From positions 1 to 29,532 of the IMG/VR virus record IMGVR_UViG_3300037246_001850: 29,532 bases of DNA, one strand, 5' to 3'. Source of the DNA: a virus. Made by a program: the position numbers and the translations under genes. The notes under the pieces were generated by a model that was not told where the DNA came from, searched no databases, and saw only the letters and a program-made list of their open reading frames with translations. Shown piece after piece: positions 368 through 24,991 of this stretch (positions are counted from its first letter, which is position 1; each line of letters opens with the position of its first letter).

Positions 368-787
368 ATGATGTCTTGTGATGATGACGATCAAATCTTC
401 TACCTGAAGCGGGGCGACACTCGACCGGTTCTAGAGGTGGTACTTCGCGACCCTCCGACGTCGGGTCAGTCAGTTGGAGATGTGCACAACCTCTCGGGAG
501 CGGATAAGGTGACGCTGCATATCAGACTTGCGGATGGGATAACGGACCTCCCAAGACTGATGACGGTCACGGACGCTCCGAACGGCGTTGTTCAATACAT
601 CTGGCTCGTGACAGACTGGGAAACTGGGAACCTTGTTGTGGGTCCGGAACTGCCGTTGGACCCAGGCGAGGAAGAGCACCGGATGGAGTATGAAGTACTT
701 GGTCCGGGAGATGCCAGGCTCACGTTCCCGAACGAGTCGTATCACATTCTCCGGATCACAGAAGATAACGCAGACGCAACACCATGA
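368..787 (+). CDS. BppU N-terminal-domain-like baseplate/tail protein
   Basis: This 139-residue protein begins directly after the stop of the preceding gene, with tandem ATGs (368 and 371). The early RGDTRPVLEVVLRD, then VTLHIRLADG, GVVQYIWLVTDWETG, and the closing EYEVL...TFPNESYHILRI follow the pattern of the small beta-sandwich domain known from the N-terminus of lactococcal phage upper baseplate proteins (BppU_N). That domain also occurs alone in many phages next to fibre genes. In BppU it anchors the receptor-binding part to the tail. Here it stands alone between the Ser/Pro-repeat protein and the terminase, so it may link a fibre to the tail tip. The family assignment is from remembered pattern, with no search run. 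Its end overlaps the terminase start by 4 bases (ATGA). Confidence 0.6.
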   Translation: MMSCDDDDQIFYLKRGDTRPVLEVVLRDPPTSGQSVGDVHNLSGADKVTLHIRLADGITDLPRLMTVTDAPNGVVQYIWLVTDWETGNLVVGPELPLDPGEEEHRMEYEVLGPGDARLTFPNESYHILRITEDNADATP

Positions 788-2259
788 GCGTTGACTTCAA
801 TCCGATGGCCGCGAGAATGGAGCTTGCGGAAGAGCTCTCTGGGATCCAGAACGAGCTCCAGAAGCGGCGTTGGGCTGCGGACGGATCGGTCTGGGTTCAA
901 GAACGTTTGGGAGAGCATGTCTGGTCGAAGCAGCGGGACATCATCGACTCGGTTCGGGATTACAGACGTTCTGCCGTACACTCATGTCACGAGGCTGGGA
1001 AGTCGTTCATCGCTTCGAGGATCGCGGGTTGGTGGCTCGACACGCACAAGCCGGGCGAAGCCTTTGTCGTTACGTCAGCAACAACAGGAGACCAGGTCAA
1101 GGCCATTCTCTGGAGAGAGATCGGTCGCATGCATACGAAGGGATCGCTCGCAGGGAGAGTGAACCAGACAGAGTGGCATATTCCAGTTGTCCAGCCGAAT
1201 GATAGAGCAAGAGAAGAGCTCGTGGCGGTAGGCCGGAAGCCCTCGGAATATAACCCTGCGGCGTTCCAAGGAATCCATGCCCGATACGTTCTCGTGATCT
1301 TTGACGAGGCGGCTGGGATTCCTGGTGGATCGAAAGACAAGCCGCATTCCCTTTGGGAGTCAGCGGACTCGTTGATCGCAAACGACGACTCACGGATTCT
1401 TGTGATTGGGAATCCGGACGACCCGACAAGTGAGTTCGCAAACGTGTGTAAGCCAGGATCCGGGTGGAACGTAATTGGGATCAGCGCGTTCGATACTCCG
1501 AACTTTACAAACGAACCTGTTCCTGAAGCGATACGATATCTCCTGATCGGCAGGACCTGGGAAGAAGAGAAACGCAAGAAGTGGGGAGAAGGGAATCCTC
1601 TTTACATTTCAAAGATCCTTGGAAGGTTCCCAGAGTCGACAGCAGGAGGACTGATCCCGATCAGCTGGGTCAAGGCCGCACAGCGACGAACTCTTCCTGC
1701 GAGCGAACCGGACGAGTTCGGAGTTGATGTAGGAGCCGGAGGAGATAAGAATACCGTTGCGCATCGTCAGGGGCCCGTCGTCCGAATCATTCGGAGAGAC
1801 CAGGAGCCTGACACCATGCGGAGCTGTGGGAACCTTCTCCACGATATGCAAGCGACAGGAACGTCTGTTGCGAAAGTCGATTATATCGGAATCGGCCGGG
1901 GACTCGTTGACCGAGCACTTGAGCTGGACAAGCCGATTATCGGTGTGAACGTTGGAATGGCTGCAAAGAACAAGGAAGAGTACGAGAACATCAGAGCTGA
2001 AGGGTACTGGGCTCTCCGTGAGCGCTTTGGCGCCGGAGAGATCGATATCGATCCGGAGGACGATGACCTTGCTGCACAGCTCGTCGGGATTAGATTTAAG
2101 AGAAGTTCTCGAGGTCGTATCATCATCGAGAGCAAGGACGAGATGAAGCGGAGAGGGATGGCGAGTCCCGATGACGCAGACGCGCTTATGCTCGCGTATC
2201 TCCCGGAGCATCTCCTTGGACCGAAGCCTGTTGAAGAGGTTGAGATCCTATGGGGTTAG
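784..2259 (+). CDS. terL: Terminase large subunit (ATPase and nuclease)
   Basis: This is the 491-residue motor that cuts concatemeric phage DNA and pumps it through the portal into the prohead. The N-terminal ATPase has a Walker A-like SCHEAGKS at residues 67-74, Walker B VLVIFDEA at 169-176 with the catalytic Glu at the end, and a coupling motif ILVIGNP at 205-211. The C-terminal RNase H-like nuclease has GVDVGAGGDKNT (Asp 315), a second acidic motif VDYIGIGRGLVD (Asp 366 and Asp 376) and PDDADAL at 462-468. Length and domain order are normal for TerL. No small terminase is evident in the window, so it is probably outside or unrecognised. The start overlaps the previous stop (ATGA). Confidence 0.95.
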   Translation: MSVDFNPMAARMELAEELSGIQNELQKRRWAADGSVWVQERLGEHVWSKQRDIIDSVRDYRRSAVHSCHEAGKSFIASRIAGWWLDTHKPGEAFVVTSATTGDQVKAILWREIGRMHTKGSLAGRVNQTEWHIPVVQPNDRAREELVAVGRKPSEYNPAAFQGIHARYVLVIFDEAAGIPGGSKDKPHSLWESADSLIANDDSRILVIGNPDDPTSEFANVCKPGSGWNVIGISAFDTPNFTNEPVPEAIRYLLIGRTWEEEKRKKWGEGNPLYISKILGRFPESTAGGLIPISWVKAAQRRTLPASEPDEFGVDVGAGGDKNTVAHRQGPVVRIIRRDQEPDTMRSCGNLLHDMQATGTSVAKVDYIGIGRGLVDRALELDKPIIGVNVGMAAKNKEEYENIRAEGYWALRERFGAGEIDIDPEDDDLAAQLVGIRFKRSSRGRIIIESKDEMKRRGMASPDDADALMLAYLPEHLLGPKPVEEVEILWG

Positions 2260-2285: not shown

Positions 2286-2292
2286 ATTGAGC

Positions 2293-3903
2293 GTGCCTGT
2301 TAATACCCCTCACAAAGAATACGACGCAATGTTCCCGAAATGGGAACGTGCGCGGGATTGCTACGATGGGTCCGACGCGGTGAAAGACGAAGGCGTCAAG
2401 TACCTACCGAAGCTCGACACCCACAAGAGACTTTCCTCTGGGGGAGAAGATCAGTACAAGGAGTACGTCATGCGTGCTCTTTACTTCAACGCCACAGGAA
2501 GGACGGTCGAGGGTCTAGCTGGAGCACTGTTCCAGGTCGCCCCGTTGGTTACAGCACCGATGGCGTTAGAACCTCATCTCGAGGATATTACTCTCGCGGG
2601 GAAATCGTTCGACCTCTTCGGACTCGAAATGGTTCGGGAAGTTCTTCTGACGGGCCGCTTCGGGGTTCTCATTGACATGCCGAATCAAGAGGTAGACGCC
2701 GTAGAGGGCTTCACGAACCTCAAGGAGATTCGTCCGTACTGGATCGCGTACCGTGCGGAAGATATCATCTCGTGGAAGACGACACGACTCGAGGGGAAGC
2801 AGCTCTTGACTCGCGTCATTCTTCAAGAGAACATCGAGGAGGAAGACGGCGAAGATCCATACGTTCCGAAGGAAGTTGAGCAGTGGAGAGTCCTGGAGCT
2901 CGTGAACGGAGTCTACACACAGTTCATCTTTCGACAGGACACGGAGAAGGAAGACACATTCATTCTCACAGACACCATTGTTCCAACACGACGTGGAGAG
3001 AAGATGCCGTTCCTTCCGTTCACGTTTGTTGGTCCGACGTCAACGTCACCGGAAGTTCAAAAGCCTCCGCTCCTGGACATGATCGATGTGAACCTATCAC
3101 ATTATAGGACAAGCGCCGATCTCGAGCACGGTCGGCACAAGGTCGCTCTTCCGACTCCGTGGGTTGCAGGAGCAATAGGCTCGAAGCACGGACCGCTCGT
3201 GATTGGATCCGGAGCAGCCTGGATGTTGGAGAAGGACGGTCGAGCTGGGATGTTGGAGTTCACCGGACAGGGTCTCGGTGCTCTAGAAAAGGCCACAGCC
3301 GACAAACAGAAGATGATGGGAACGCTCGGAGCTCGGTTGCTCGAGGAGCAGTCCGGTGCTGCGGAGACGGCAACTGCTGTGAACATGCGCCATGCTGGGG
3401 AGAGCGCGACGCTTCGTACGATTGCGCAGACAGCAGGGTTCGCGTTGACGCAGGCGTTGAGGGTTCATTCCTGGTGGCTCGGGACTCACGCCACGCCGTC
3501 TGACCTTCGACAGATTCAGTGTGATCTGAACAAGGAATTCTTTACGACCCGTCTGAAGCCACAGGAGCTCCAGGTTCTGATCATGGCGTTGCAATCGGAT
3601 ACTATCTCGATGGAGACCTTCTACGCGAATCTCCAACGTGGAGAGATCGCACGTCCGGGCGTTACGTTGGACGAGGAGATGGCTGACATTGCCGCGAGGT
3701 TCGATGGTGATGTACTTCCTGGTGAAGGTGGAGAAGACGAGGGCGAGGGAGGATCGTTCACAGTTGAAGAGAGAGATGGCAAGTATGTCGTCCTAGACAA
3801 GGACGGGAAGGTTCAGGGAACGTTCGATACGGAGGAAGAGGCGAACAAGAAGAAGGACGAGCTCTCGAAGAAGAAGCCTGCAGAAGAGGATCAGAATGCC
3901 TAA
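2293..3903 (+). CDS. Portal protein (DUF4055 type)
   Basis: Portal proteins form the dodecameric ring at the capsid vertex that conducts DNA and nucleates head assembly. The N-terminal half (YVMRALYFNATGRTVEGLAGALF..., then LLTGRFGVLIDMPNQ) has the pattern of the DUF4055 portal-like family, and the position after TerL fits. A TTG at 2287 is in frame, but AGGAGG at 2280-2285 lies only 1 base from it and 7 bases from the GTG at 2293, so GTG 2293 (MPVNTPHK..., 536 residues) is the better start. The C-terminal 50 residues (EERDGKYVVLDKDGKVQGTFDTEEEANKKKDEL) form a small charged module after an acidic Gly-rich linker and end in a Lys/Glu tail. The last codons overlap the next start. Confidence 0.85.
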   Translation: MPVNTPHKEYDAMFPKWERARDCYDGSDAVKDEGVKYLPKLDTHKRLSSGGEDQYKEYVMRALYFNATGRTVEGLAGALFQVAPLVTAPMALEPHLEDITLAGKSFDLFGLEMVREVLLTGRFGVLIDMPNQEVDAVEGFTNLKEIRPYWIAYRAEDIISWKTTRLEGKQLLTRVILQENIEEEDGEDPYVPKEVEQWRVLELVNGVYTQFIFRQDTEKEDTFILTDTIVPTRRGEKMPFLPFTFVGPTSTSPEVQKPPLLDMIDVNLSHYRTSADLEHGRHKVALPTPWVAGAIGSKHGPLVIGSGAAWMLEKDGRAGMLEFTGQGLGALEKATADKQKMMGTLGARLLEEQSGAAETATAVNMRHAGESATLRTIAQTAGFALTQALRVHSWWLGTHATPSDLRQIQCDLNKEFFTTRLKPQELQVLIMALQSDTISMETFYANLQRGEIARPGVTLDEEMADIAARFDGDVLPGEGGEDEGEGGSFTVEERDGKYVVLDKDGKVQGTFDTEEEANKKKDELSKKKPAEEDQNA

Positions 3904-4192
3904 GACGATAAAGAAAGGACATCCATTCTACGGGAATCAGTATGTGACAGTTTCGCAGAGGAACCTGTCGAAAGGAGTTAGGCGTAAGGCATTGAAGTTC
4001 GCTGCATCGAAGAAGATGAAAATGTCCAAGTCTCTACGTAGGGGTCTCCTGAGATCCGCCGCAGCACCGGGTCCGGCTACAATGACTACTGGTCTACGTC
4101 GAGGTCTTTTGAAATTCGCCGCATCGAAGAGTGTAGCAACTATGTCCAAGTCACTGACGGTTCGCTCTCTTCGATTCGCCGCGAGGATATAA
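3896..4192 (+). CDS. Basic tandem-repeat protein with an N-terminal GHPFYGNQYV motif
   Basis: This 98-residue protein has about 24 Lys/Arg and no Asp/Glu. The motif GHPFYGNQYVTVSQRN occupies residues 8-23, right after the start. It is shared with five genes at 9288-10906, where it is at or near the C-terminus or mid-protein. Residues 29-98 are three and a half imperfect repeats of about 20 residues (RRGLLKFAASKSVATMSKSL type), each an Arg pair followed by a hydrophobic LLKFAA-like stretch and a Ser/Thr-Lys segment. It overlaps the end of the portal gene and the start of the next gene, inside the head module. A role as an internal or DNA-binding head protein is inferred only from charge and position. 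I do not recognise a named family. Confidence 0.7.
   Translation: MPKTIKKGHPFYGNQYVTVSQRNLSKGVRRKALKFAASKKMKMSKSLRRGLLRSAAAPGPATMTTGLRRGLLKFAASKSVATMSKSLTVRSLRFAARI
3980..4189 (+). repeat. About 60-bp imperfect tandem repeats (3.5 copies)
   Basis: The units encode residues 29-47, 48-67, 68-87 and 88-98 of the basic protein. The shared segments read roughly RR-G-LLKFAASK...MSKSL, and copies differ at many third codon positions. Confidence 0.75.
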
Positions 4193-4455
4193 TGCCAAAA
4201 CAGCTCCATACGGTTCTCGTCGATGCCGCGGACAGACGTGAGGCCCGTTTCCGTCGTGCGTTCATCAAGTCCTCGAAACAGCTCCAGGCGGACTTTCCTC
4301 TCGAGGAGATGACGAGGATCCTGGAGACGGGGAGCCTACAAAAGGCGATCGCGTTCGTCGACGCTATGGATCTGGAGACCGTACTTGGTCCTGTCGTTGG
4401 GATCACGAAGGATACGTTTGTCAAGGGCGGTAAGGAAGGAGCGAAAGTCCTCTAG
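4192..4455 (+). CDS. Small head protein, probably equivalent to the N-terminal segment of MuF-type proteins
   Basis: This is an 87-residue, mostly helical-looking protein. Features include RREARFRRAFIKSSKQLQADF, a LETGSLQKAIAFVDAM stretch and a final VGITKDTFVKGGKEGAKVL. In many phages, a segment of about this size and character forms the N-terminus of the Mu-F-type minor head protein, just before the part that here begins in the next gene. The start ATG overlaps the previous stop (ATAATG), and the stop overlaps the next GTG start by one base (TAGTG), so translation is probably coupled. No slippery sequence was seen at the junction, so I read this as a genuinely split gene. The family comparison is from memory and moderately uncertain. 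Confidence 0.6.
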   Translation: MPKQLHTVLVDAADRREARFRRAFIKSSKQLQADFPLEEMTRILETGSLQKAIAFVDAMDLETVLGPVVGITKDTFVKGGKEGAKVL

Positions 4456-5819
4456 TGCCACACGACGTTAAATTCGGGTTCAAGGCTCGGAACGAGACGG
4501 CTATCGCCGCTGCGGAGAATAATGCAGCTCGTATGGTGAAGAATGTCTCTGACGAGACAAGACGCGCGATCCGCGGGATCGTTGTACGATCGATCCGCGA
4601 CGGGATTCCACCACGCGACGCCGCGAAGATGATCCGGGGATCAATTGGTATGGATTCGAGACAGACTGCCGGAGCCTCGAACTACCGAGCAGAGCTCAGG
4701 ACTTCGGGTCTGTCCGAGGAACGTATCGACAAGGCGTATGAGTTCTACACCGCAAAGAAGATCCGACAAAGGGCAACACGTATCGCTCGGACTGAAGTCA
4801 TGGGCGCGCTTAACGCTGGATCGTTGGAGAGCTGGAAACAGGCTCAACGTGATGGGCTGCTCCCCGCGAACGCGAAGAAGAAGTGGATCGTGACGAAGGA
4901 CGACGCCCTCTGTCCTGTCTGCCGACCGATGAAGGAACAGGAGCAGTCGTTTGGAAAGAAGTTTATCCTTCCGAACGGAAAGAAGGTCATGTTCCCACCA
5001 GCGCATCCTGACTGCCGGTGTACAATGGGCGACCCGTCGGCATTCAAGGCCCGGAAGGAGATGTACAACTTCGTTCGAGGATTCCTCCCTCCTCTCGCTC
5101 GGAAGTTGAAGGAAGTGAACATCCTTGCGCCCGACGATTTTATGGACGGTGGTGTTGCGGATCCGTTTACTAGGTTCGGTGAGAAATACTACCAGTCAAA
5201 CAACTTCGGTTTTACTAACATGAGACGAGCATACGTTCAGATGGACTCGATGCTCCGAGCAGGGCGAATGCTTGAGAAGACGGGCTATCTCCTATCCGAG
5301 AAGATCGGGCTTATGCCTCATCCTGCTTGGGAGCCGGCTCTCTTTGCAGAAGCGATGTGGGGTGCGAAGCCGATACGTACTATCGTTACGAACCTCTCGA
5401 GTCCCGCATGGTCGTACCGCCCGAGACTCCGAGCCCTTGATGTTGTTGGCTCACCAATAATCGCCAAGATGAAAGAACATGGTCCAGAGTATATCCTCCT
5501 TCATGAGTATGGACATATGTCCTGGGGACTGGATAAGTCAGACTTCTGGGGTGGGACGGAGACGGACTGGAATAGCCGTCCTCTAACTGAAGCGCTAGAG
5601 CGACTGGGTACGAATCCTCCGATGGCAAGGCTTCGTGCGACTATGGAAGTGTCACCATATGCAGGGACGAATCTTCAGGAGTTCGTTGCAGAGGTCTTTG
5701 CACGGAACGTCATAAGCAAGTTTGTATACGGCAAGAGCGTCTTGAGTGAGTGGAGTCCTCTTAACCTGCCACGACTCCTAGCTGAGCTTTATGATTGGGT
5801 GGGAGGACCTAAGCTATGA
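4455..5819 (+). CDS. Mu-F-like minor head protein fused to a putative zinc metallopeptidase domain
   Basis: This 454-residue protein starts at GTG. Residues 1-195 are a Phage_Mu_F domain: DETRRAIRGIVVRSIRDG, the signature ARTEVMGALNAGS (111-123), CPVC (153-156) and PPAHPDCRC (181-189). Such proteins sit inside the head near the portal and may be ejected with the DNA. Residues about 220-454 form an extra domain with HEYGH at 350-354 (HExxH zinc motif) and TNLQEFVAEVF at 405-415, which could supply the third ligand Glu. This is the pattern of gluzincins such as anthrax lethal factor (HExxH followed by an EFFAEAF-like motif). MuF proteins with C-terminal toxins or enzymes are known. Here the domain could act as an injected effector or a maturation protease. 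The MuF call is strong and the zincin call good; the target is unknown. Confidence 0.85.
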   Translation: MPHDVKFGFKARNETAIAAAENNAARMVKNVSDETRRAIRGIVVRSIRDGIPPRDAAKMIRGSIGMDSRQTAGASNYRAELRTSGLSEERIDKAYEFYTAKKIRQRATRIARTEVMGALNAGSLESWKQAQRDGLLPANAKKKWIVTKDDALCPVCRPMKEQEQSFGKKFILPNGKKVMFPPAHPDCRCTMGDPSAFKARKEMYNFVRGFLPPLARKLKEVNILAPDDFMDGGVADPFTRFGEKYYQSNNFGFTNMRRAYVQMDSMLRAGRMLEKTGYLLSEKIGLMPHPAWEPALFAEAMWGAKPIRTIVTNLSSPAWSYRPRLRALDVVGSPIIAKMKEHGPEYILLHEYGHMSWGLDKSDFWGGTETDWNSRPLTEALERLGTNPPMARLRATMEVSPYAGTNLQEFVAEVFARNVISKFVYGKSVLSEWSPLNLPRLLAELYDWVGGPKL

Positions 5820-6118
5820 CCGGAGCACAGTGCGAGACTTGCACCCACTTTCGACTGCATACTGATAGGCTGCCAACATGTGCAGCTTTTCCAAAAGGAG
5901 TTCCGAGTGAAATCATCCTCGGGAAGAAGAATCATAGGAGGGAGATTCCCGGAGATCATGGGATCGTCTGGGAGCCAAAGAAACAGGCAGAGTACTTGAT
6001 CGAACCTGAGAGTGAAGAAGATGTAATGGGCGATCCTAGGAAAGCCCTTGGTGGTGTTGAACCTGCAGATAGCTCCGGAGGGGCGAACCCCGGTGGGGCG
6101 GAAAGGGACGTATCATGA
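5816..6118 (+). CDS. Small Cys-containing phage protein
   Basis: A 100-residue protein with three N-terminal cysteines, CETC at 6-9 and Cys 22, followed by AAFPKGVPSEIILGKKNHRREIPGDHGIVWEP. This C-x2-C...C-AFP-G-(I/V)P-EI...H...PGD-GI pattern is common in small phage proteins of unknown function encoded near MuF and capsid genes. The cysteines, with His 40 or His 48, may bind a metal ion. The C-terminal third (residues 66-100) is Glu/Gly-rich and probably disordered. The start overlaps the MuF stop (ATGA), and the stop overlaps the scaffold start (ATGA). No function can be assigned. Confidence 0.7.
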   Translation: MTGAQCETCTHFRLHTDRLPTCAAFPKGVPSEIILGKKNHRREIPGDHGIVWEPKKQAEYLIEPESEEDVMGDPRKALGGVEPADSSGGANPGGAERDVS

Positions 6119-6861
6119 AAGTTGTAATCGCGACGTTGACAGATGTGCCAGAGGCACTACACAGTGAGTACGCGAAGCAGAGTGACGGAACGTTCCGTCT
6201 CAAGGTCGAAGGCGACATTCCCGAACTGACGGAGTACAAAACTAAGGTCACAGAGTTCCGGGACAAGAACATCAAGCTCATGAAGGATGCGGAAGAGCAA
6301 GACAAGAAGCTGAAGACGTACGAAGGGATCGACCCTTCCGAGCACACCAAGATGAAGGCACGACTCGAAGCGCTCGAGAAGAAGGGTGGGAGCGATGCAG
6401 ACAACGACGCTCGGATGAGAGCTGCGGTTGCAGCGGAGACCGGGCCGTTGAAGGAGCAGATCAACACAGAACGCACGGCGCGTGAGACAGCGGAGCTGAA
6501 GCTCAAACGACGCGATCTCGAAGGGAAGCTTCGAACAGTCGGAACCACGATCAAGGTCGCGGACAGCGCGATGAAGGACTTCCTCTCTCGAGGAATGAGT
6601 GTCTTCAACTTGGAAGGCGTTGCGATGGACGGAGAGACCTCTCTCTACAGCAAGGAGAAGCCGACGGAACTCCTGGGAATGGAAGAGTGGGGGAATCTCC
6701 TCTTCGTAGAAGCACCGCATCTCTTCACCCCGTCGAAGGGTGGAGGGGCAGATCCCCGTGTTGGACAACATGGGAAGAGGACAATGGACGGATCGAACCC
6801 GGTCGAGCTCGGCCGGAATCTCGAGGCGATTGCGAAGGGCGAGATCATCGTCAACCAGTAA
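6115..6861 (+). CDS. Capsid scaffolding protein
   Basis: A 248-residue protein rich in Glu, Lys and Ala. It starts with the typical scaffold opening ALHSEYAKQSDGTFRLKVEG, followed by long charged helices (residues about 40-145, including EYKTKVTEFRDKNIKLMKD and ERTARETAELKLKRRDLEG) that read as coiled coil. The C-terminal 100 residues are more mixed (FNLEGVAMDGETSLY, LLGMEEWGNLLFVEAPHLF), followed by a Gly-rich linker and a final ELGRNLEAIAKGEIIVNQ. It lies directly before the coat gene, the usual place for a scaffold, which shapes the prohead and then leaves or is degraded. It is coupled to the upstream gene by an ATGA overlap. The assignment is strong by pattern and position. Confidence 0.8.
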   Translation: MKVVIATLTDVPEALHSEYAKQSDGTFRLKVEGDIPELTEYKTKVTEFRDKNIKLMKDAEEQDKKLKTYEGIDPSEHTKMKARLEALEKKGGSDADNDARMRAAVAAETGPLKEQINTERTARETAELKLKRRDLEGKLRTVGTTIKVADSAMKDFLSRGMSVFNLEGVAMDGETSLYSKEKPTELLGMEEWGNLLFVEAPHLFTPSKGGGADPRVGQHGKRTMDGSNPVELGRNLEAIAKGEIIVNQ

Positions 6862-6996: not shown

Positions 6997-8121
6997 TTGG
7001 CAGCAAATGATCTGACGAACGTCATTCCTCAACTACTCGCCCAGGGTCTGATGGCCCTGCGTGAGCAGGCGATCATGGCGCGTGTCGTGAACCGGGGCTA
7101 CGAAGCGATGGCGGGCGGGAAGGGGTCGACAATCGACATTCCGATCCCCTCCGCAATCGCCGTGCAGGCCGTGACTCCGGGAGAAGTGCCTCCCGCCACG
7201 GAAGGGGTGACCCCGACGACAGTCGCGATCGCTCTCGACCAGTGGTACGAGGCGCCGTTCTACCTGACGGACAAGGACATGCACGAGGCGATGGAGGGGA
7301 CGATCCCCATGCAGGCCTCGGAAGCAGTCAAGGCGATCGCGAACCAGATCGACGGAGACATCCTGGCGGAGTACGTCAACATCTATGGGTACGCGGGCGT
7401 CGCCGGTTCCACCCCGTTGGCTGCGGACCTGCAGGAGTACCTGGACGCGAGAGTCGTGCTCGCGAACCAGCTCGCTCCGATGGATCCTCGGTTCATGATC
7501 CTCGACGCGACGGCAGAGGGGAACGCACTCGGTCTGAGAGCGTTCCAGGATGCCTCGTTCAGAGGTGACACGGCCGGCATCATCAATGGCCAGATCGGTA
7601 CCAAGCTCGGTGCCCTCTGGGCCATGGACCAGAACATCCCGACACACACCAAGGGGACGGAAGACGGGGCGTACACCACGGACGCAAGCGGCTACGCCAT
7701 TGGCGTAGAGACGCTCACCACGCTCACAGGGTCTGGTACCATCGTTGTCGGCGACATCTTCACGATCGCAGGCGACGACCAGACCTACACCTGCACGACG
7801 ATAATGGGTGCACCGGGTGCACTCGCATTCCAGCCCCCACTCAAGGTGGCGATCACGACGTCGGCTACGGACATCACCGTGAAGGATTCGCACGTCGTCA
7901 ACCTGCTCCTGCATCGTGACGCGTTCGCTCTGGCGATGCGTCCGTTCGCAGGCGTCGATCCGATGAACCTCGGGAACTTCTCGAGCATGGTGGACCCGGT
8001 CTCCGGGCTCGTCCTGCGCCTGGAGGTCACGCGTGAGCACAAGCGGACCCGCTTCTCGTACGACGTTCTGTACGGGGTCGGGACGCCGCGTCCGGAGCTC
8101 GCCACTCGTATGGCGGGTTAG
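6997..8121 (+). CDS. Major capsid protein (P22 coat family)
   Basis: This 374-residue protein starts at TTG 6997 (MAANDLTNVIPQLLAQGL), with GGAG at 6986-6989 spaced 7 bases away. The P22-type coat pattern is clear: an N-terminal helix with ALREQAIMARVVNRGYE, then STIDIPIP, the VTPTTVAIALDQWYEAPFYLTDKD segment, and a characteristic end with HRDAFALAMRP..., DPVSGLVLRLEVTREHKR, DVLYGVGTPRPELATRMAG. Residues about 225-290 (GDIFTIAGDDQTYTCTTI) fit the beta-rich inserted domain of this family. It assembles on the scaffold into the icosahedral shell. Codon choice is richer in C/G-ending codons than in neighbours, as expected for the most expressed gene. A hairpin terminator follows. Confidence 0.9.
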   Translation: MAANDLTNVIPQLLAQGLMALREQAIMARVVNRGYEAMAGGKGSTIDIPIPSAIAVQAVTPGEVPPATEGVTPTTVAIALDQWYEAPFYLTDKDMHEAMEGTIPMQASEAVKAIANQIDGDILAEYVNIYGYAGVAGSTPLAADLQEYLDARVVLANQLAPMDPRFMILDATAEGNALGLRAFQDASFRGDTAGIINGQIGTKLGALWAMDQNIPTHTKGTEDGAYTTDASGYAIGVETLTTLTGSGTIVVGDIFTIAGDDQTYTCTTIMGAPGALAFQPPLKVAITTSATDITVKDSHVVNLLLHRDAFALAMRPFAGVDPMNLGNFSSMVDPVSGLVLRLEVTREHKRTRFSYDVLYGVGTPRPELATRMAG

Positions 8122-8758: not shown

Positions 8759-9274
8759 ATGCCGACGGTCATTGTAACGCCTGGCGCGGTAGATGCGAAC
8801 AGCTACGCGACTGTCGCTGAGGCAGACCTGTATCATACGACGCACTTGTACGCGTCAGACTGGACAGGAGCGTCTCAGACAACGAAAGAGACAGCTCTGA
8901 TTATGGCAACGCGCTTGCTCGACCACCACTACATCTGGAACGAGTGGCCTAGCACTATCGAACAGGTGTTGCAATGGCCGCGGGATGGCGTCATCGCATT
9001 CAACCAGAGGGACTGGGTTGACGTAGACGAGATTCCAATCCAGTTGAAGAACGCAACTGCGGAGTACGCGAGACAGCTTATCGCGGAGGATCGGACCGCA
9101 GACAGCTCGATCGAGACACAAGGGATCACCGCGATAACAGCCGGATCAGTTTCGCTCTCGTTCAAGAGCTCGGTCATTGCGAAGGTGATTCCGGATGCCG
9201 TAAACGATTTAATTCCCCATTGGTGGGGGTATCCTGCTGATAGTACAGGGACCAGGGAACTGATCCGTTCGTAG
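8759..9274 (+). CDS. Head-tail connector/adaptor, DnaT-like
   Basis: A 171-residue protein, ATG at 8759 preceded by AAGGAGG. The sequence follows the phage family labelled DnaT-like ssDNA-binding protein, now usually read as a gp6-type head-tail adaptor: SYATVAEADLYH at 15-26, ALIMATRLLDHHYIWNEW at 46-63, LQWPRDG at 71-77, IPIQLKNATAEYARQLI at 92-108, and a C-terminal segment with SVSLSFKSS and IPDAVNDLIPHWW. Adaptors of this type bind the portal ring after packaging and extend the DNA channel. Position between coat and neck genes agrees. The gene after it starts the basic GHPFYGNQYV cluster. Confidence 0.75.
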   Translation: MPTVIVTPGAVDANSYATVAEADLYHTTHLYASDWTGASQTTKETALIMATRLLDHHYIWNEWPSTIEQVLQWPRDGVIAFNQRDWVDVDEIPIQLKNATAEYARQLIAEDRTADSSIETQGITAITAGSVSLSFKSSVIAKVIPDAVNDLIPHWWGYPADSTGTRELIRS

Positions 9275-9287
9275 GAAAGGAGAGAAG

Positions 9288-9593
9288 ATGCCAAGACGAT
9301 TTAGTCGCCTATCCGGTGTCGGACGGATCGGCCTGGGCAGTACCAGCATTGCAGCGGGCATTGCAAAGATAGGGATCGGAGGAATGAGCGCCAGTCGTGG
9401 GTTCGTAGCGGGTGAGGGACTGCGAGTCGGGAAGGGCTTAATGGCTGTCCACTCAGGAGCGAAGACGATCCGGTCTGGAGCGAGACACGTTCGTGCAGGC
9501 ATACGAGGAGCTCGCGGACAGAAGGGTCATCCGTTTTACGGGAATCAGTATGTTCGAGTTTCGTCCCGGAACAAAGCACGGAGGGTTCGATAG
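9288..9593 (+). CDS. Basic Gly-rich protein with a C-terminal GHPFYGNQYV motif (cluster member 1)
   Basis: A 101-residue protein, ATG at 9288 after a strong GGAAAGGAGAG site. It has a single acidic residue (Glu 43) against many Arg/Lys. Residues 9-58 are glycine-rich and semi-hydrophobic (VGRIGLGSTSIAAGIAKIGI and GEGLRVGKGLMAVHSGAKT), like a glycine-zipper or amphipathic membrane-active helix. Residues 59-78 are Arg-rich. The tag GHPFYGNQYVRVSSRNKARR is at 80-99, ending two residues from the C-terminus. The stop overlaps the next GTG start (TAGTG). The Gly-rich body resembles that of the 10200 gene, while other cluster members have different bodies but the same tag. Function unknown; I infer a head-associated or ejected protein. 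Confidence 0.7.
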   Translation: MPRRFSRLSGVGRIGLGSTSIAAGIAKIGIGGMSASRGFVAGEGLRVGKGLMAVHSGAKTIRSGARHVRAGIRGARGQKGHPFYGNQYVRVSSRNKARRVR

Positions 9594-9778
9594 TGCCAAG
9601 ACGAGGAGGCCGGAACTCCGGGGGCCGGAACAGTGGTGGGAGGAGGAGCGGAGGCCGTCGGAGCGGTGGACGACGACTTACCAGTGGGAGGAGATCTACC
9701 AGGACAGCCCAAGGTCATCCTTTCTACGGGAACCAGTACGTACAGGTTTCGAGCCGGAACAAGGCAAGGAGAGCGTAG
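9593..9778 (+). CDS. RGG-repeat-like basic protein with a C-terminal GHPFYGNQYV motif (cluster member 2)
   Basis: A 61-residue protein, GTG start overlapping the previous stop. It contains 16 Arg, one Lys and no Asp/Glu. Residues 4-34 are tandem Gly-Gly-Arg units (RNSGG and RRSGG), like the RGG repeats of nucleic-acid-binding proteins, then GHPFYGNQYVQVSSRNKARR at 41-60 and a final Ala. The composition is protamine-like, and electrostatic binding to the packaged DNA is a reasonable inference. Its TAG stop is immediately followed by the in-frame ATG of the next gene. The motif and its exact coupling to neighbours argue that it is a real gene despite the low complexity. Confidence 0.65.
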   Translation: MPRRGGRNSGGRNSGGRRSGGRRSGGRRLTSGRRSTRTAQGHPFYGNQYVQVSSRNKARRA

Positions 9779-10192
9779 ATGCCTGTTACAAAGCGTCTTC
9801 GTGCTGCAGCGAGCCTGATTGGTCGGAGAAGGTTCTCGTCTCGGGCTCGCGCTCCTGGTCGGAAGAAGCTTCGACAAAAGGCGTCAGCGAAAGGACATGT
9901 CTTTTACGGGAATCAATATGTTCAGGTCTCAACACGGAACAAGGCAAGGAAGACAACGTCCCAACCCACGACTCATGCAACACCTACTCCTGCTCAGACG
10001 ACTGCAGTGAATAGGCTTCTAGCACGAAAACGAACCAATCCACTAGAACGGCCTCGTGTAGGATCCCGGATGACTAGTACTGAGTATGCGGCGATCCAGA
10101 AGAAGCTCGGGACTAGCAGTAAGAAGCCTAAGCTAACAATGGAGCAGGCATTCGTAAAGGGCTTTCTCAAGGGGTTTTTCGCTAAGGACTAG
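9779..10192 (+). CDS. Basic protein with an internal GHVFYGNQYV motif and a C-terminal extension (cluster member 3)
   Basis: A 137-residue protein, ATG directly after the previous TAG in the same frame. Residues 1-37 are Arg/Lys-rich (GRRRFSSRARAPGRKKLRQK). The tag GHVFYGNQYVQVSTRNKARK is at 39-58, with Val in place of Pro. Unlike its neighbours it then continues through a Thr/Pro linker (SQPTTHATPTPAQTT) into a second unit with TSTEYAAIQKKLGT and a C-terminal MEQAFVKGFLKGFFAKD, which looks like an amphipathic helix. The tag can therefore be internal and need not be the terminus. Function unknown; the context is the head-tail connector region. Confidence 0.7.
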   Translation: MPVTKRLRAAASLIGRRRFSSRARAPGRKKLRQKASAKGHVFYGNQYVQVSTRNKARKTTSQPTTHATPTPAQTTAVNRLLARKRTNPLERPRVGSRMTSTEYAAIQKKLGTSSKKPKLTMEQAFVKGFLKGFFAKD

Positions 10193-10199
10193 GGAGAGA

Positions 10200-10487
10200 A
10201 TGATGGGTGGACGACGAAGAGTCTCGAAGACGTCTCGAGCACGTGGAATCGGAAGGATTGCATACGGCGGAGCTCAGTCGTTCGTTGGCTTCGCCGGACT
10301 CTCAGTTGGTCATATCGGGGGATTGATCTTTAGTGGTGCTGGGGCGAGGAACGTCGTGAAAGGCGGAAGGCAAGTATTCGCTCGGACGGGTCGGGGATCC
10401 GGGTCCGGTGGGAGACAGAAAGGACATCCGTTCTACGGGAACCAATACGTAAAGGTGTCCTCGAGGAACAGAGCGAGGAAACGATAA
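10200..10487 (+). CDS. Basic Gly-rich hydrophobic protein with a C-terminal GHPFYGNQYV motif (cluster member 4)
   Basis: A 95-residue protein with two possible ATGs (10200 and 10203); AGGGAGAG upstream fits the second slightly better. It has about 20 Arg/Lys and no Asp/Glu. Residues 19-50 contain a hydrophobic glycine-zipper-like stretch (AYGGAQSFVGFAGLSVGHIG then GLIFSGAGAR), long enough to span or insert into a membrane, flanked by Arg clusters. A Gly/Ser/Arg linker precedes GHPFYGNQYVKVSSRNRARK at 75-94. The stop overlaps the next ATG (ATAATG). The body resembles the 9288 protein. A membrane-active ejected protein is one possible reading, and a DNA-associated protein another. Confidence 0.7.
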   Translation: MMGGRRRVSKTSRARGIGRIAYGGAQSFVGFAGLSVGHIGGLIFSGAGARNVVKGGRQVFARTGRGSGSGGRQKGHPFYGNQYVKVSSRNRARKR

Positions 10488-10906
10488 TGGGAAGGGCGTT
10501 CGGTGGAAAGACAAAGTGGAAGAACCCTTTCTCTGGTCTCTTCACGAAGAAGAAGAAGAAGAGCTCATTCATCGGAAGGCGTCAGCGGACACTCGGAGAA
10601 CGTGCTCATGCCGCAGTGAAGAGCGGAGCGAGGATCATCCATCTGGGTAGGACGATAGGAGGACGAGTTCAGCTCGCTTCTGACGTCGGACTACTCAGGA
10701 CTAGACGTACCTCATTTCTCGGAGGGAAGGGAGGAGGCCAGTCACATGCGAAGCCTCCGGTTCGACGAACGAACATACTGGGACAGAAGAAGAAGACTGT
10801 ATACATTCCACGCTTCTGGGGGAACCAGTATATTAAGATCGGTGAAGGTGGTCGTGTGGCGAAGAAGTCTCCCGGGAAAAAGGCTTCTCTGGTAGGGAGG
10901 AAGTAA
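10487..10906 (+). CDS. Basic protein with a diverged FWGNQYIKI motif (cluster member 5)
   Basis: A 139-residue protein. Residues 8-33 are Lys-rich (KTKWKNPFSGLF then a run of five Lys), followed by RRQRTLGERAHAAVKSGARI, resembling the Gly/Arg segments of the 9288 and 10200 proteins, and LLRTRRTSFLGGKGGGQSH. At 108-118 PRFWGNQYIKI keeps F-x-GNQY of the family tag but has lost GHP. A Gly/Lys-rich tail follows. It sits last in the cluster and overlaps both neighbours by 1 base. The remnant tag suggests common descent with the other members, or selection on a smaller core (F-GNQY). I do not recognise the family. Confidence 0.65.
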   Translation: MGRAFGGKTKWKNPFSGLFTKKKKKSSFIGRRQRTLGERAHAAVKSGARIIHLGRTIGGRVQLASDVGLLRTRRTSFLGGKGGGQSHAKPPVRRTNILGQKKKTVYIPRFWGNQYIKIGEGGRVAKKSPGKKASLVGRK

Positions 10907-11295
10907 TGGCACTGGACGACGTACTCCGATCAGGCATCGCGACGATCAACAAGGTGACGAAGAGTCTTCAGGTGAACGTCCAGCACCGAGCCTGGGTCAA
11001 AGCGAAGGGCGATGGAGAGGACAAACTTGATCCTCCTATCTTGCGTCCGGCGATTGTGGAGTATAAGAGGAGAATGGTTCGGACAGCGACTGGAGACGTT
11101 GTCCAACAGAACGCATCGATCCTCTTCGTAGAGCTCATCGAGCCGAACGGAGCTCCAGGACGACGAGAACCGATCGATCCGAGAGACGAGATCACGTTGC
11201 CTGATGGGCACTGCGGTCCGATTCTAATGGTTGTTGGTCCACCGACAGATCCAGACACGAGTCGTCCTTACATGCTCGAGGTGAGTCTTGGCTGA
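10906..11295 (+). CDS. Neck/head-closure protein
   Basis: A 129-residue protein, ATG overlapping the previous stop (TAATGG). It is mostly beta: QVNVQHRAWVKAKGDGEDK, AIVEYKRRMVRTATGDVVQQ, ASILFVELIEPNG, then DEITLPDGHCGPILMVVGPPTDPDTSRPYMLEVSLG. The closing pattern LPDG-x-x-GPIL-x-V...T-RPY-x-EV-LG is typical of the stopper or head-closure proteins of siphoviruses, which plug the portal channel and dock the tail. Its place directly before the gp10-like and terminator genes supports this. It is the first gene after the basic GHPFYGNQYV cluster. Family assignment is from pattern memory. Confidence 0.65.
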   Translation: MALDDVLRSGIATINKVTKSLQVNVQHRAWVKAKGDGEDKLDPPILRPAIVEYKRRMVRTATGDVVQQNASILFVELIEPNGAPGRREPIDPRDEITLPDGHCGPILMVVGPPTDPDTSRPYMLEVSLG

Positions 11296-11671
11296 GTGGG
11301 AAGGGCAACGCGAGCTCCAGAAGAAGCTCAAGGCCTTGGGCACGGTACTTCTCTTAGAGACCGGGCCTGCTCTGTTCACGGAGGCGGTCGAGATCGAACA
11401 GGCATCGAGGAAGAGGACGCCTGTCGATACTGGAGCGTTGCGCGCGTCGCATGAAACGGAACGTCCAGTCGTCCAACGAAACAGCGTTTCAGTAACGATC
11501 TCGGTCGGTGGACCAGCAGCACCGTATGCTATAAAGGTCCACGAGATGGTTGAGGTCCCGCATCGAGTCGGAGAGGCGAAGTTCCTTGAGAAGTCGGTTC
11601 TCGAAGCTGCGCCCGGACTCAATGCGCGGATTGCGAGGAGGATCGATTTGAACAGGGTGGCAAAGAAATGA
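11288..11671 (+). CDS. HK97-gp10-like tail component
   Basis: A 127-residue protein. The likely start is TTG 11288 (MAEWEGQRELQKKLKALG), inside the end of the previous gene. The segment RTPVDTGALRASHE at 43-56 is the hallmark of HK97 gp10-like proteins, and it is followed by VSVTISVGGPAAPYAIKVHE. These proteins act at the head-tail junction in tail completion. Downstream VPHRVGEAKFLEKSVLEAAP is also typical, with the conserved aromatic/Glu-Lys-helix arrangement. The stop overlaps the next start by 4 bases (ATGA). Confidence 0.85.
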   Translation: MAEWEGQRELQKKLKALGTVLLLETGPALFTEAVEIEQASRKRTPVDTGALRASHETERPVVQRNSVSVTISVGGPAAPYAIKVHEMVEVPHRVGEAKFLEKSVLEAAPGLNARIARRIDLNRVAKK

Positions 11672-23536: not shown

Positions 23537-24991
23537 ATGCCTCCTTCCCCAAGTCTTTCACCTAGCGCGAGTATCAGTCCTTCCGCGTCGGAGTCGTTTA
23601 GCGTTTCACCATCTGCTTCTATTAGCCCATCTGCTTCTATTAGCCCGTCTGCTTCAGCGTCTGCGAGTGAGAGCTTCTCGCTCTCGCCTTCTGCATCGGT
23701 CTCGGCCTCGAAATCGGCCTCGCTAAGTCCGAGCCCGTCGTCCTCGCCTTCGATCTCGCCGTCGGCTTCCGTGTCGCCCAGCATCTCTCCATCGGCTAGC
23801 GCTTCCCCGAGCGTCTCGCCCTCCGCCAGCGACTCCCCGAGCGTCTCTCCGAGCGCGTCGATTAGCCCCTCGATCTCTCCCTCCGCCAGCAAGAGCCCGA
23901 GCCTGTCTCCGAGCGCATCAATCTCGCCCTCGTCGAGCGTGTCTCTATCGCCATCAGCCTCGGTAAGTCCCTCGGCCTCGCAGTCGATCTCGCCAAGCCA
24001 ATCGCTCTCTCCCAGCCCGTCGGCGTCTGCCAGCGTGTCCCCGAGCTCGAGTACGTCGGCATCGCTGTCGCCCAGCGCCTCCGTGTCTGGGAGTGGATCG
24101 TTGTCTGTGTCGCCGTCCGCGTCGGAGTCGATTTCGCCGAGCGCGTCTGTGAGTCCGAGCGCTTCGTTGAGCCCGTCAGCGAGTCCGAGTCCAAGTCCAG
24201 ATGAGGACGTTGCCACGATCGCTCATGGTTGGGTTTCGAGACAAACGAAGGCGGACAGCGAGGGAACTGGTGGCGTACCGCCTGTGCCGGCCGGTAACCG
24301 TCTGATGAGCTACGGGCAGGGCGCGTTTCTTGAAGAGAATTTCATGGGGCACTACCCCGCCGCCACTCACCAAGACCTCCTCGTGGCGCACGTGAAGTGG
24401 TTGATGGGTGGGCAGTCGACAGGACTCGTTCTTGTCTCGGACGTTCACGTAGACCTCAGCTTCTTCGATGAGGACGCGGTATCCGTTATCGAGGTTGGAA
24501 CCACCGCTCGTGAAGCGCTTACGGACGCCGGCTTCACGATCAGCGCCAGTTCGGACGACGAGCAGAAGATCACCTATCCGGAATTCGACGTTGCTATCAT
24601 TGGGATCGACCATACGTTCGCGACGGACCTCACGAACAACGACAAGCAGGACATGCTCTACGATTTCATCTTCGCCGGCGGCGCTCTCATCACCACCAGC
24701 ATCAGTCAGCCCTACATGACCAACCGCTTTTACACGAAGGTTCCTATCAGCCTCGGGCACTCCACGCCCAGCGTGAATCCGGGCGAAGACTTCGTGAGCC
24801 TCACTGATGCGACGGCGAAGAACGCGACCATCTTTCCCCCCGGCATGTCGATGCACCGGAAGCTGTCGGGATGGGTGAACCTGAACGACATCTTCGAAGA
24901 CGCCAATCACCAGCTCTATCCGGCGGACGACGGGTTCGGCCCCGTTCATACCAACCGGTTCGCAACTTTCTCGGGACACGGTGACGCCTAA
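23537..24991 (+). CDS. Ser/Pro-repeat protein with a C-terminal Rossmann-like globular domain
   Basis: A 484-residue protein, ATG at 23537 one base after the previous stop. Residues 1 to about 221 are an almost pure Ser/Pro/Ala array of SPSASx units with occasional Lys, Glu, Gln or Gly. Residues 222-484 are globular: an N-terminal [12 protein letters not shown]-like region, [50 protein letters not shown] and [14 protein letters not shown]. The alternating strands and helices with a G-G-A-L-I-T turn resemble glutamine-amidotransferase-like or ThuA-like Rossmann folds; this is inference. A stretched rod with a terminal binding head is a plausible model. The globular part uses more GC-ending codons than the tail module. 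Confidence 0.75.
23540..24200 (+). repeat. Ser/Pro/Ala hexapeptide-repeat coding region
   Basis: About 660 bases encode SPSASx units. Two 18-base units (23609-23626 and 23627-23644, encoding PSASIS) are identical direct copies, a sign of recent tandem duplication. Elsewhere serine alternates between TCN and AGY codons. Confidence 0.9.

Follow-up and report, generated by a model that had tools for sequence, protein, structure and literature searches.

In phage T4, a capsid-targeting sequence (CTS) of about 10 amino acids is known to encapsidate virtually any protein and to be removed thereafter (PMC7697877). In phage P1, the first 30 residues of DarB target a reporter to the capsid (PMC9024508), and complexes of DarA and Hdf, which are located on the inner capsid surface and touch the DNA, are absent from contracted, DNA-less particles (PMC12810830). 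Closely related in domain repertoire and head context are the polyvalent proteins and the MuF/portal effector fusions (Iyer et al. 2017, PMC5512222), the description of which contains neither the string GNQ nor the word linker. Here, we describe a peptide with the core GHxFxGNQ[YW] that recurs within and between phages on proteins with unrelated bodies and probably serves as an address label, unnamed until now, by which proteins are loaded into phage heads.

The stretch of DNA analyzed (the window) is a 29.5-kb IMG/VR virus record (29,532 nucleotides), in which Pfam and PHROG scans revealed a conventional head module (Table 1). A sequence-only reading had placed a cluster of five basic mini-proteins, b1 to b5, between the connector and the neck genes, and this placement proved right. 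The gene directly downstream of the cluster, after which neck and connector proteins follow, encodes a product with no PHROG or Pfam match. The MuF open reading frame (ORF) carries its zincin-like HEYGH motif at 5502-5516, outside any Pfam match, and may possibly encode a MuF-metallopeptidase fusion. Ser-Pro-Ala repeat proteins are found at both ends of the record (2-367 on the left and 23537-24991 near the right).

Table 1. Head-module genes, basic mini-proteins, and tag copies in the window (nucleotide positions).
Feature	Position	Strand	Remarks
Terminase large subunit	784-2259		
Portal	2287-3903		phrog_145
Sixth tagged basic protein, 98 aa	3896..4192	+	directly behind portal gene; tag near N terminus
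Tag copy in sixth protein	3914..3964	+	KGHPFYGNQYVTVSQRN
MuF head protein	4455..5819	+	C-terminal HEYGH motif
Scaffolding protein	6115..6861	+	phrog_206
P22-type major capsid protein (coat)	6997..8121	+	
Head-tail adaptor Ad1 (connector)	8759..9274	+	phrog_477; upstream border of basic cluster
Basic mini-protein cluster b1-b5	9288-10906		between Ad1 and neck genes
b1, 101 aa	9288..9593	+	basic; AAAGGAG upstream, ribosome-binding-site-like
Tag copy in b1	9522..9581	+	KGHPFYGNQYVRVSSRNKAR
b2, 61 aa	9593..9778	+	RGG/RSGG-repeat body; GTG start
Tag copy in b2	9710..9769	+	QGHPFYGNQYVQVSSRNKAR
b3, 137 aa	9779..10192	+	Lys/Arg-rich; tag internal
Tag copy in b3	9890..9949	+	KGHVFYGNQYVQVSTRNKAR
b4, 95 aa	10200..10487	+	b1 paralogue; hydrophobic Gly-rich segment
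Tag copy in b4	10419..10478	+	KGHPFYGNQYVKVSSRNRAR
b5, 139 aa	10487..10906	+	basic; degenerate tag only
Degenerate tag in b5	10814..10840	+	FWGNQYIKI
Conserved protein downstream of cluster	10906..11295	+	head-closure-like by position only
Neck protein	11288-11671		phrog_5

The shared-tag cluster itself is real. Four of its five genes, and the sixth gene behind the portal, encode the peptide GH[PV]FYGNQYVxVS[SQT]RN at positions ranging from amino acid 8 to near the C terminus, while b5 retains only the degenerate remnant FWGNQYIKI. The extreme Arg/Lys excess was likewise borne out, with 17-36 Lys plus Arg against 0-4 Asp plus Glu in b1 to b5, and all six window proteins are strongly basic (predicted pI of about 12), as is seen in internal basic DNA-binding virion proteins. 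Two details of the sequence-only reading held in part: some gene pairs indeed overlap, by one base, whereas others abut or stand 7 bases apart, and the bodies of b2, b3, and the sixth protein do differ, whereas b1 and b4 are full-length paralogues with homologues in two related loci (L013 and L038). Nothing significant was found for the six proteins in Pfam and PHROG scans. In an AlphaFold2 model of b1 (mean pLDDT of 66, built from only 6 sequences), the body forms two long helices (residues 5-41 and 44-76), and the tag, modelled with low confidence as coil, separates them from a third helix; a linear motif would be accessible in such a state.

Four or five proteins with differing bodies are identical over nine residues, and the tag DNA pattern matches five times in the window against none for the reversed control, which excludes chance. 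Pairwise codon comparison of the four full window tags (20 codons, pooled) gave a pS of 0.77, i. e., saturation, against a pN of 0.091; the resulting ratio of 0.12 is far from the dN/dS near 1 that the sequence-only reading had named as contrary evidence, and it falls to 0.056 for the 11-codon core including the sixth copy. The same holds for within-contig tag pairs with unrelated flanks (pS of 0.83 vs pN of 0.11). As silent sites are saturated while residues are kept, the tag is selected as protein. The peptide thus did not spread by recent copying of DNA, nor is it neutral, and neither recent duplication nor gene conversion explains its sharing among the window genes.

Relatives of the window phage link this local tag to a wider family of peptides. 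In L009 (64 % identity in the major capsid protein, MCP), a 47-aa basic protein ending in GDKPGHPFRGNQYS / VGDKPGHPFRGNQYS is encoded between Ad1 and the head-closure homologue, and the same slot holds three tagged basic proteins in L038 and at least one in L013, which additionally encodes an untagged basic 131-aa protein behind the portal. L081 (MCP 65 %) has three proteins starting with MGDxxGHxFRGNQ; in L127 (MCP 63 %), a small ORF encodes MGDKPGHVFHGNQH, and an ORF directly behind the terminase encodes MGDGQFHGNQYTG. A single clade (L009, L038, L013, L081, and L127) therefore shows F[YRH] variants as well as N-terminal, internal, and C-terminal placement, and thus forms the bridge between the window tag and the broad motif. 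In L127 and L130, no such cluster separates Ad1 from the gene that follows. Such patchy occurrence and the b1/b4 paralogy might be taken to mean that the cluster is merely an expanded family of basic genes in which the tag was inherited without a function of its own, but this is extremely improbable given the preservation of residues at saturated silent sites and the presence of the same tag on unrelated proteins elsewhere.

The window tag represents, in its local form, the broader motif [VI]xKGDxxGHxFxGNQ[YW]Tx, for which position counts over 261 tag contexts yielded the consensus x[VI]xKGD[VL]xGH[PE]F[HRY]GNQ[YW][TSV]xG. The exact string GHPFYGNQYV occurs in no other IMG/VR contig, so that a relaxed pattern was needed to find relatives; GHxFxGNQY occurs at no fewer than 120 IMG/VR loci, and 173 non-redundant tagged ORFs were derived from those listed. 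At the DNA level, 241 copies were counted in 28 IMG/VR records (reversed control: 0), with up to 25 per genome. Placement is N-terminal in 84 copies, internal in 158, and C-terminal in 5, one of the latter (L080) being likely due to chance, and many copies are followed by a Gly-rich stretch. Variable tag positions are more similar within contigs (0.424) than between contigs (0.326; 0 of 500 label permutations), even where flanks are unrelated, and although silent sites are close to saturation. Such phage-specific dialects fit a common phage-encoded reader, and could also be a product of shared ancestry.

A search of 257 Gb of cellular genomes gave no more than 88 stretches with the pattern, most of which were rejected as chance-like matches in short or antisense frames. 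Flavobacteriia low-complexity proteins, however, carry the motif without obvious phage context, which counts against a role as cargo label; these are proteins of about 280 aa with GHPFFGNQYTSG (L147 at 1464-2342, L159, L212, and others), the one from L147 also having RDSQGRF motifs. In addition, genomes of Bacillota, Chloroflexi, and Actinobacteria encode proteins of about 160-175 aa that start with MGxPxGHPFFGNQYTDGGY or close variants (L160, L162, L169, L176, L201, and L213), with a further hydrophobic segment and a Cys-rich end in L160 and L176. Among cultured phages, tblastn with the short tag gave one convincing match, a protein of Xanthomonas phage Rb1 annotated as 'internal head protein' with DarA_N and InPase domains; weak matches in Enterococcus phages (E of about 5) were treated as chance. 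The short-tag search found nothing in plasmids, and no match to the tags was present in the PDB. A description of the motif was not found in the literature searched, which was thin on subscription journals, so that this absence is no proof of novelty.

Tagged proteins fall on a head side and an effector side. In a Pfam tally of 129 tagged proteins, the former comprised Portal_Mu, Phage_portal_3, MuF, DUF2213, S78_2 (XkdF-type), and the Mu-like I protease, and the latter ART-PolyVal, zeta toxin, PBECR1/3, and HipA; 2'-5' RNA ligase was also present. The PHROGs of the same proteins were dominated by head and packaging, the label 'head maturation protease' being loose because some such PHROGs match MuF regions. 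In portal, MuF, and capsid-protease proteins, the tag lies where domains meet; in six large ORFs examined with Pfam, it was found within a MuF protein and just ahead of ART, DRAT, GNAT, HipA/PI3-4-kinase-like, and KptA domains, and it also precedes PBECR nuclease and zeta-toxin domains. Stand-alone tagged proteins measure about 90-280 aa. Shared leaders, MSGFTTNELLYPLTKGD for example, precede their tag, which begins after roughly 15-40 aa, and their genes often lie in tandem arrays, as in the window. Clusters of strongly basic tagged proteins were only found in the window phage's own clade. A small, basic, DNA-binding nature, which had been suspected for tagged genes, is thus not a general rule and was discarded, as the median net charge per residue is -0.012 and lengths reach about 2100 aa.

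The expectation that the tag lies near head genes in other phages was supported. Since the terminase landmark (phrog_2) was present in only 7 of 23 records, near and far ORFs were compared instead. Untagged ORFs within 5 kb of tags match head families (portal, minor head, head morphogenesis, protease, and major head). Far ORFs on the same contigs instead match tail, endolysin/lysis, WhiB and other regulatory, and metabolism families, with no head family among the top 25 listed; the far controls were 20-kb samples of incomplete contigs in which capsid loci were covered in part. Exonuclease and other non-head families were also found near tags.

Taken together, the reading that best accounts for the head context, the effector cargo, and the position independence is a label for head cargo, and we assign a probability of roughly 55 % to GHxFxGNQ[YW] being a modular address label, independent of position, on proteins that are assembled into the prohead or along with it and are ejected. 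In this reading, one of the components at hand while the head is built (scaffold, portal, MuF, or coat) would bind the unstructured tag, upon which the tagged module would be co-assembled with the prohead, kept with the DNA, and ejected along with it. What we infer from this pattern is that tagged proteins are present in the virion, are recognized by a component of the prohead, bind DNA, and are ejected. In the window phage, the label would sit on Arg/Lys-rich proteins that probably coat or condense the packaged DNA or help it to exit the virion.

The polyproteins, which reach 2096 aa, have one tag per domain at a spacing like the lengths of stand-alone tagged proteins. This exceeds the need of a single targeting event and counts against a cargo label, and it would suit a processing site, at or near which a head protease would cut to free effector domains from polyproteins and portal/MuF carriers. 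Tags directly after protease domains in fused ORFs (L067 and L007; ClpP-like in L182), protease families in about half of the tagged records (S78_2 in 12 of 26), and the removal of the T4 targeting sequence itself by the head protease (PMC7697877) point in the same direction. However, in L009, L068, and L071 the protein ends within 5 residues after the tag core, where cutting frees nothing, and the window, whose head module has a P22-type coat plus scaffold, yielded no S78, S78_2, or DUF2213 protease; an unrecognized protease or the HEYGH domain of the MuF protein is a candidate for this function. Because tags can end a protein and the window contains no canonical prohead protease, a pure cleavage site fits less well and appears unlikely, while cargo label and cleavage site could coexist in one tag, as they do in T4.

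The Gly-rich stretches, the low-confidence coil in the b1 model, and hybrids with GGPGSG linkers might also suggest that the tag has no specific partner and is a flexible, unfoldable hinge or linker by which domains can thread through portal and tail. In linkers, however, purifying selection rarely maintains G, H, F, G, N, Q, and an aromatic residue at fixed distances from each other, and terminal tags join nothing, so that we give this explanation little credence. Even less probable is that the tag, once injected, has a partner in the host (a chaperone, ribosome, membrane, or nucleoid component, for instance): effector-type domains bear it and some cellular Bacteroidota proteins contain it, but so do portal, MuF, and head-protease proteins of the phages, and copies from one phage resemble one another more than they resemble copies from other phages.

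Two further peptides, GGPGSGNFGHAGRPGEVGGS and HPRDxxGRFA, share the head and effector loci of the tag but have cores unlike GHxFxGNQ. They recur in proteins of the L121, L105, L093, L107, and L016 loci, and a 1740-aa protein of L121 combines all three motifs, with hybrids KGGPGSGAQPGHPFNGNQYTGG. A string search found no paper on either peptide in a literature coverage that was thin on subscription journals. Both may be functional equivalents of the tag. More tentatively, and with the odds somewhat against it, one may envisage a general head-loading code, in which one position-independent peptide with phage-specific dialects directs as many as about 25 modules per genome to the capsid in uncultivated tailed phages, and a small set of interchangeable peptides (GHxFxGNQ, GHxGRPGxVGGS, and RDxxGRFA) does the same job in different phages. 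If a head-loading label is indeed at work, packaging and injection of any tag-bearing protein would be predictable from sequence alone, the injected arsenals of uncultivated phages would be revealed, and laboratory systems would gain a short handle with which to load proteins of choice into phage heads. The selection of internal proteins in phages without T4-like machinery would become testable as well; in P1, work on this question had turned up no common signal and left it open.

The analogy to the T4 targeting peptide drawn in the sequence-only reading fits; the motif is selected, it is linked to head genes, to head-protein fusions, and to effector-type domains, and it marks proteins of the kind that are packaged and ejected. 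Like the CTS of IPI-III, the tag is a short peptide common to several proteins of one phage and reused on unrelated bodies, and many stand-alone tagged proteins also start with a shared leader. Its sequence is unrelated to the capsid-targeting sequences of T4 and P1. Unlike the CTS, it is not strictly N-terminal but position-independent, occurs many times per polypeptide and in structural proteins too, and can be C-terminal. With the polyvalent proteins and MuF/portal effector fusions (PMC5512222), tagged proteins have ART, PBECR, peptidases, MuF and portal fusions, and head context in common; many tagged relatives are in fact multi-domain effector proteins encoded with head genes, whereas the basic window proteins, which belong to no significant family, are not, and the tag is an extra feature that is also found on single-domain and basic proteins. 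As to P1, a DarA_N protein bears the tag in phage Rb1, but the N termini of the P1 Dar proteins have no common consensus (PMC9024508), in contrast to the single genome-wide consensus observed here. By analogy, the DarA-Hdf complexes of P1 are a plausible model for the basic proteins of the window phage.
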